From assembly GCA_014859655.1 (NCBI GenBank), contig JACUTT010000004.1:17841-81840 (forward strand): a DNA stretch of 64,000 nucleotides. Direction: 5' to 3'. Under the pieces are notes generated by a model. It was not told the origin of the DNA, made no database searches, and saw nothing but the letters and a program-made list of their open reading frames with translations. The DNA comes from Campylobacterales bacterium (GTDB lineage Bacteria; Campylobacterota; Campylobacteria; Campylobacterales; Sulfurimonadaceae). This document shows positions 13,712 to 64,000 of the stretch, in pieces. Positions within the stretch are counted from its first letter, which is position 1; the number at the start of each line of letters is the position of its first letter. The translations under genes and the position numbers were made by a program.

Positions 13712-13904
13712 GGTGTCCGGGTGGGCGTTCCGCGGTTAGCTTTGGTTCTCAAAGCCGAATTGTAGCAGACTGAGCCAGTTCTAACGGTAGCAGATTCTAA
13801 GGCTTGCGCCCTCAAACAAAAATACTTCACACGAACTGTCTACGCCGTCCGCTGTATGAAAATGTAGAACCCCCTGATATGCGAGTTATCGCACCACCCA
13901 GGCA
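13712..13904 (-). ncRNA. ssrS: Probable 6S RNA (ssrS) upstream of purD
   Basis: Minus-strand -10-like GGCTATAAT (13910-13917), then ~190 nt with long closing stem GCCTGGGTGGTGCG...CGCCCACCCGG and central imperfect pairing; located directly upstream of purD, a position I recall for epsilonproteobacterial 6S RNA. Confidence 0.6.
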
Positions 13905-62920: not shown

Positions 62921-63484
62921 ATGAACTTAGAGATCTCCGAAGTTGCCAATCTACCCACAAAACACGGAACCTTCAAGATACAGGCCTTCAAAGAACACCA
63001 CAAAGAACATCTTGTCATATTTACCGAAAAACTCCCCGACATTCCCATCGTCCGTGTGCACTCCGAGTGCCTCACCGGAGACGCACTGGGGAGTCTGAAA
63101 TGCGACTGCGGCGACCAGCTCGATCTCTCGCTGAAAATGATTTCCAAAGAGGGTGGCATGGTGCTATATCTTCGACAAGAAGGCAGAAACATCGGTCTTT
63201 TGAACAAGGTCAACGCCTACGCGCTTCAAGACAGGGGCTTCGACACCGTTGCGGCCAACCACCAGCTGGGCTTTCCGGCCGACGCGCGCTCGTATGAGAT
63301 CGTGCATGACATCTTGAAGCACTTCAAGATCAGCCGCATCCGCCTGCTCACCAACAACCCCGAAAAGATAAAATCCCTCCAGGCCATCGAGATCGTAGAG
63401 CGCCTCCCCATCATCGTCAAGACAAACGTGCACAACCAAGACTATCTGCAGGTCAAAAAAGAGCAGATGGGGCACTTACTGTAA
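62921..63484 (+). CDS. ribA: GTP cyclohydrolase II
   Basis: VRVHSECLTGDALGSLKCDCGDQLDLSL; LYLRQEGRNIGLLNKVNAYALQD. Start moved to ATG 62921. Confidence 0.93.
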   Translation: MNLEISEVANLPTKHGTFKIQAFKEHHKEHLVIFTEKLPDIPIVRVHSECLTGDALGSLKCDCGDQLDLSLKMISKEGGMVLYLRQEGRNIGLLNKVNAYALQDRGFDTVAANHQLGFPADARSYEIVHDILKHFKISRIRLLTNNPEKIKSLQAIEIVERLPIIVKTNVHNQDYLQVKKEQMGHLL

Positions 63485-63675
63485 TTTATACACTTCGGCG
63501 AGCTAAGCTCACCTTCGTTACGATGACTCTGCGTCCTCCTCAGCGGAGTGCTCGCGGACAGTGAACCGTCCTGGGGGTTTGGTCTTGTCGAACACTTTTT
63601 TTGGCTAATTTTGTTTTTACCGCCTAATAAGCACTTTACTTTCTTATCTTCGTTTGGATGCTGAAGTTATTATCT

Positions 63676-64000
63676 CGTGTCACCTCTCCTGAGGTGACAC
63701 GCATACGGCAGTCCGAACGTAAAGCACAGCGGCTGTGTCTAAGCAGGTGAACTGCCTATGCGTTCCACCTCGGGAGAGGATGGAACGAGGTTATACTTTT
63801 CTGAGCTCTCATGTCACCTCTCCTGAGGTGACATGTATACGGCAGTCCGAGCATAAAGCACAGCGGCTGTGTCTAAGCAGGTGAACTGCCTATGCGTTCC
63901 ACCTCGGGAGAGGATGGAACGAGGTTATACTTTTCTGAGCTCTCATGTCACCTCTCCTGAGGTGACATGTATACGGCAGTCCGAGCATAAAGCACAGCGG
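63676..64000 (+). repeat. Tandem array of 134-bp structured units (at least 2.4 copies, continues past window edge)
   Basis: GTCACCTCTCCTGAGGTGAC starts at 63679, 63813 and 63947 (period exactly 134). Each full unit carries three predicted hairpins. No supported ORF. Confidence 0.9.

Follow-up and report, generated by a model that had tools for sequence, protein, structure and literature searches.

REPs are palindromes of 20–40 nt with a conserved unpaired foot, and two inverted REPs with a spacer, foldable as a single hairpin, constitute a REPIN or BIME, further hallmarks being that the same REPs flank a gene for a REP-associated tyrosine transposase (RAYT) and that the host genome encodes the cognate RAYT. 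Classic REPs are scattered over many extragenic sites, often in more than 100 copies per genome. RAYT-mediated mobility involves binding of the hairpin, C|T cleavage and strand transfer. Binding and cleavage of single-stranded REPs have been demonstrated for the RAYTs of E. coli, Stenotrophomonas and Marinomonas (PMC8266576). The REPINs of Pseudomonas fluorescens SBW25, for which dissemination of the REP pair as a unit has been proposed, also form clusters of tandem repeats that include flanking sequence (Bertels and Rainey 2011, PMC3116915). TnpA-REP subclass 2.6, or RAYT group 5, comes mostly from Bacteroidetes, and the structures flanking its transposase genes are weaker and have been called ‘atypical’ (Quentin et al. 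2018, PMC6006769). The survey of GTAG and CGTC REP superfamilies reports GTAG repeats in epsilon-Proteobacteria and lists Sulfurovum NBC37-1 as CGTC-positive (Di Nocera et al. 2013, PMC3733652).

We analysed a tandem array at the end of a 64-kb stretch of a Campylobacterales genome (the window). The array is very probably a tandem cluster of REPINs, inverted REP pairs with a structured spacer, and thus BIME-like non-autonomous mobile DNA of a known kind rather than a new class of RNA, because its REPs flank RAYT genes in related genomes, are dispersed, and all five of its hairpins match a model built without window sequences.

Comparison with described systems

The array shares with the SBW25 REPINs and their tandem clusters the inverted REP doublet, the hairpin-forming spacer, compensatory changes in the hairpins, and the repetition of nearly identical REPINs together with flanking DNA; it differs from them in the sequence of the REP and its foot (TATGCA/CGAG) and in a much lower copy number, and a search of its host genome found no RAYT (PMC3116915). 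The RAYTs of relatives resemble those of the subclass 2.6 REPtrons in length (177 aa, against 179 in the published table), in the motifs NHLH (NH[LIV]H) and YIHxNP (YIH[QN]NP), in a WQ in most of them and a downstream SS, and in flanking structures that are not of the GTAG type and recur elsewhere in the genome; here, however, Campylobacterota are the hosts, and the hairpins have a strong, regular structure (PMC6006769).

With the GTAG and CGTC superfamilies (PMC3733652) the family has several traits in common: the palindromes are short and have one unpaired end tag, they pair up as inverted dimers around structured spacers, they occur in tandem groups, and they are located between convergent genes. 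The consensus foot is nevertheless TATGCA, rather than the GTAG or GTGG that lies 5′ of the hairpin in the GTAG superfamily, or CGTC, with GTAG occurring on the inner side in a minority of copies; and whereas the CGTC REPs are described there as having no dedicated transposase, the REP family of the array has one. E. coli BIME-2 likewise consists of tandem alternating REPs but differs in REP sequence, foot and RAYT subclass. The literature that we covered contains no earlier description of a TATGCA/CGAG REP family in Campylobacterota; as far as that literature goes, the family seems to be new to the sulfur-oxidising Campylobacterota, the REP/REPIN class itself being known.

A tandem array beside ribA

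TRF reports a tandem array at 63673–64000 with a period of 134, 2.4 copies, 97% matches and 0% indels, which bears out the exact 134-bp period claimed in an initial annotation of this DNA. The array and the gene that precedes it comprise the following features.

62921–63484, plus strand: ribA, GTP cyclohydrolase II (PF00925, E = 6.6e-59), with its 3′ end facing the array
63673–63705, minus strand: REP monomer a, copy 1 (H1), TATGCG-TGTCACCTC-AGGA-GAGGTGACA-CGAG-A (model R2, 37.3 bits, E = 2.2e-6)
63706–63756, no strand: spacer separating the REPs of copy 1 (H2); its ends, GGCAGT/ACTGCC, are complementary and enclose a CACAG/CTGTG hairpin (sequence and fold)
63757–63790, plus strand: REP monomer b, copy 1 (H3), with one bulged A, TATGCG-TTCCACCTC-GGGA-GAGG(A)TGGAA-CGAG-G (R2, 39.7 bits, E = 6.1e-7)
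63791–63806, no strand: 16-bp linker TTATACTTTTCTGAGC, which separates REPINs, was amplified as part of the unit and contains TATACT (sequence)
63807–63839, minus strand: REP monomer a, copy 2 (R2, 34.2 bits, E = 1.1e-5)
63840–63890, no strand: spacer, copy 2 (sequence)
63891–63924, plus strand: REP monomer b, copy 2 (R2, 39.7 bits, E = 6.1e-7)
63925–63940, no strand: linker, copy 2 (sequence)
63941–63973, minus strand: REP monomer a, copy 3 (R2, 34.2 bits, E = 1.1e-5)
63974–64000, no strand: spacer, copy 3, truncated where the contig stops (array resumes at G000:C65:1–295)

The array had been thought to be cut off by the window. It is indeed cut at 64000, but contig C74 itself ends there and not the window alone, so the assembly holds nothing to the right. 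The array resumes at the start of another contig of the same genome (G000:C65:1–295) with the same copy variants as in the window, two of its units having a linker that reads GTAAATACTTTTC instead. The pieces on C74 and C65 sum to about five units or more. Past the C65 part lies the end of a convergent gene, outer-membrane-protein-like by look alone (no Pfam match), and in two further relatives ribA is followed directly by a homologue of this gene. Because relatives keep the two genes adjacent and the array resumes on C65, the contigs are very probably joined through the array, which lies between convergent ribA and the outer-membrane-protein-like gene. In the close relative G004, whose ribA is 96% identical, the homologue of the convergent gene also comes directly after ribA, and the intergenic alignment contains no array.

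The flanks of the array resemble each other (window 63605–63655, TTTTTACCGCCTAATAAGCACTTTACTTT; L011 296–345, TTTTACTGCCGCATTAATATTTTACTTT), perhaps reflecting an old duplication of the target region. The assembly also breaks at a direct repeat, acgcccagcagtgggcgttgttattgctttttggatgcacttcgtgctcttat, which reaches the end of C65 (L006, about 1660–1819). Elsewhere in the window, a purD RNA motif (RF01069) scores above the gathering score at 13715–13843 on the minus strand.

A position between two convergent genes is usual for REPs, according to PMC3733652, and the hairpins are strong, so the array might have been selected there as bidirectional terminators or mRNA-stabilising hairpins, with its REP origin incidental. 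We consider this unlikely: G004 has the same gene order without any array, REPs are present at unrelated loci, and no U-tract follows the REP stems, a terminator scan giving two weak sites that both fall within the spacer.

The unit is a pair of inverted REPs

The three stems H1 (63676–63701), H2 and H3 of the initial annotation are all present as it described them, but the unit is better read as two inverted copies of one palindrome plus a spacer. H1 on the minus strand (TATGCGTGTCACCTCAGGAGAGGTGACACGAGA) and H3 on the plus strand (TATGCGTTCCACCTCGGGAGAGGATGGAACGAGG) are one 33–34-nt element, TATGCR-[9-bp stem, NGGA-type loop]-YGAG, with the size and the unpaired feet (TATGC and GAG) of a REP. 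H2 is a palindromic spacer, the complementary ends of which extend the REP palindrome, and the most stable plus-strand fold of the unit is one long hairpin in which H1 pairs with H3, as for a REPIN or BIME, and not three stems. Element and linker repeat together, which is also true of published REPIN clusters. Across genomes the REP takes the general form (G)TATGCA-[9-bp stem, 4-nt loop]-CGAG, in which the inner foot (G)TATGCA and the outer foot CGAG are both conserved; the guide foot could be either the inner TATGC or the outer CTCG on the other strand.

Of the 134 unit positions, five (5, 28, 30, 45 and 47) distinguish copy 1 from copy 2. The compensatory pair reported for H1 is exact, G63677/C63700 in copy 1 and A63811/T63834 in copy 2, and it sits in the REP feet (TATGCG...CGAG versus TATACA...TGAG). 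The reported change of a G-C pair to a G-T wobble corresponds to unit position 30 (C/T).

REPs are dispersed in the genome and across Campylobacterota

Covariance model R2 was built from 22 sequences, none of them from the window, and neither model that we built included a window H3. Searched against the 64-kb window, R2 finds all five array hairpins and nothing else at E ≤ 1. In the genome as a whole, a model search gives 16 REP matches at E ≤ 0.1 on five contigs (C4, C10, C20, C65 and C74), and a pattern search gives 10 against 0 for a reversed control. Copy number is therefore low by these counts, and the matches that were inspected are intergenic. Contig C4 carries further complete inverted REP pairs, and it is the single REP, without H2 or linker, that forms the dispersed and conserved unit.

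REPs occur in 16 of 16 Campylobacterota genomes, which had been picked for having them, with no control matches. Exact matches to the core in named genomes are confined to Campylobacterota (Sulfurimonas, Sulfuricurvum, Sulfurovum and Helicobacteraceae MAGs), and another genome has a separate tandem array with 94-bp spacing (L125). A second type of palindromic repeat, CGTCATTCCCAACTTGATTGGGAAT, which resembles CGTC-tagged REPs, lies between window-type REPINs on contig C4 (L012, about 118–150), and in genome G016 an IS30-like transposase gene (by look) lies ~110 bp from a REP (L019, 163–1164), possibly an IS targeting the palindrome.

The same REPs flank RAYT genes in relatives

A scan for CGAG-footed hairpins identified three loci at which a gene for a 177-aa Y1 protein lies between inverted REPs. 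These proteins score above the curated cut-off of NF047646 (REP_Tyr_transpos, the NCBIfam family for REP-associated tyrosine transposases), and in a wider search 44 of 399 genomes of the order contained the protein or remnants of it. Most of the intact RAYT genes that we fetched have hairpins on one or both sides at about 20–200 bp, with TATGCA pointing inward and CGAG outward; at L212, L216, L219, L239, L250, L256 and L259 the hairpin scan gave no hairpin. The window's own stem, TTCCACCTC/GAGGTGGAA (exact stems TTCCACCTCNGGAGAGGTGGAACGAG), is found on both sides of an intact RAYT gene in L218 and of a split one in L263, and adjoins complete or broken RAYT genes in L252, where the two REPs share one orientation, L195 and L215. 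The same REPs thus flank RAYT genes in relatives (L218, L263 and others), but not in this genome. The H1 stems of the window (TGTC/GACA) have diverged from the stems at the RAYT genes.

The 177-aa proteins have the HUH motif NHLH and the tyrosine motif YIHxNP, and with their WQ, SS and length near 179 they carry the signature of subclass 2.6/group 5, an assignment made by motif only; among 10 RAYTs, WQ is missing in two and YIHHNP is present in two. We assign the REPs to these RAYTs, and recognition of hairpins by the transposase would explain the covariation described below. Longer Y1 proteins of relatives (225–280 aa) were rejected as the cognate RAYTs, being mostly without REPs alongside, which fits subclass 2.1, described as REP-free. 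No relatives of the RAYT were found in viral contigs.

Searches of the array's own genome (85 contigs) found no RAYT or Y1 transposase, although a RAYT could sit in a repeat gap of the assembly. The REP copies therefore look orphaned, their mobilisation in this genome is not direct, and present-day movement is doubtful. In strains of E. coli, the RAYT is described as having been lost while its REPs stayed (PMC3733652).

Among the RAYT loci, L218 (G103:C13, 844–2244) is a REPtron rich in REPs: window-type REPs enclose its intact RAYT, and further REPs there have another stem type. Its genome, G103, has 32 REP model matches. At L235 (G100:C4, 1722–2028), REPs with a different stem (TTCCGCCAG/CTGGCGGAA) form same-orientation repeats beside a short RAYT remnant.

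Folding, covariation and the RNA reading

Compared with dinucleotide shuffles, one unit has a far more stable fold on either strand (z = -5.5 and -5.4). In 24 distinct monomers, partly picked for pairing, 97.2% of cells pair, both partners have changed in eight of nine pairs, and covariation scores 0.718, compared with 0.177 ± 0.028 when shuffled and at most 0.114 when slid. Because of that selection we took a fairer set, chosen only by the feet and by a handful of outer stem letters, with the inner five pairs not required; in it, pairing holds at 213 of 230 inner positions, compared with 108 ± 8 when shuffled. Such near-invariant feet beside a freely varying stem sequence are the pattern that a hairpin-reading transposase with a fixed guide would select.

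The initial annotation had proposed a candidate undescribed structured RNA, perhaps a multi-copy small RNA array or a self-processing RNA transcribed from each unit, and had taken covariation without an Rfam match as support for novelty. That combination is indeed observed, but an RNA does not follow from it here, since identical covariation is imposed by a transposase reading hairpins in single-stranded DNA; DNA and RNA are not separable in this way, and gene context decides. The strong folding on both strands, the covarying stems and the TATACT in the linker suit an RNA. Against it, the unit has no credible Rfam match at the gathering score or relaxed to E ≤ 10, and no promoter is predicted in the array; the −10-like TATACT, present at 63792–63797, belongs to the inter-element linker and becomes TAAATACT in other units. 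Moreover, the dispersed unit is the REP without H2 or linker, and the same hairpins form the terminal inverted repeats of transposase genes. We therefore regard all of these RNA proposals as very improbable. The small ORFs through the unit are short and overlap on both strands. A further suggestion of the initial annotation, an array of recombination or protein-binding hairpins, came close, these being REP hairpins of the kind that RAYTs recognise. It had also named an annotated repeat as grounds for abandoning its reading, and this applies in kind, REPs, BIMEs and REPINs being a described class.

That the assembler falsely made the tandem copies is hardly credible: both C74 and C65 break within the repeat, but the copies differ at several positions, the same variants recur on the two contigs, another genome has an independent tandem array, and dispersed REP copies exist. 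Very improbable, too, is a MITE derived from some other type of transposon, or an array of integron attC sites or CRISPRs, because, despite the terminal inverted repeats and tandem order, the repeats are the hairpins common to RAYT loci and not to any DDE transposon seen here, and, with a period of exactly 134 bp and no variation in the inner sequence, there is no room for a variable spacer or cassette.

Origin of the array and its significance

For the tandem REPIN cluster, the structure, dispersal, RAYT linkage in relatives and presence or absence relative to G004 observed here, together with what is established for RAYTs elsewhere, suggest the following course. A RAYT would recognise the hairpin and foot in single-stranded DNA, cut beside it and disseminate the REP pair as a unit. 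One copy would have inserted between ribA and the convergent gene, and the element with its 16-bp linker would then have been amplified in tandem, by recombination or slippage or by the transposase. At the RNA level, the hairpins could still end or stabilise the convergent transcripts as a side effect.

An apparently new structured repeat is thereby tied to a known mobile-DNA system, a caution that covariation and the absence of an Rfam match are not in themselves proof of a new RNA. RAYTs whose flanking structures have been called ‘atypical’ gain a clear REP definition, and the many stem variants with fixed feet, each beside a RAYT gene, provide a natural data set on which parts of the hairpin the transposase reads. 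We hold it to be evenly balanced whether the Campylobacterota have a lineage-wide REP/REPIN system with feet of its own (TATGCA inside, CGAG outside), driven by subclass 2.6-like RAYTs and with stems that diversify freely by covariation while the feet stay fixed. In that case the window would show a host without its former transposase in which the system has nevertheless persisted and even undergone tandem amplification.
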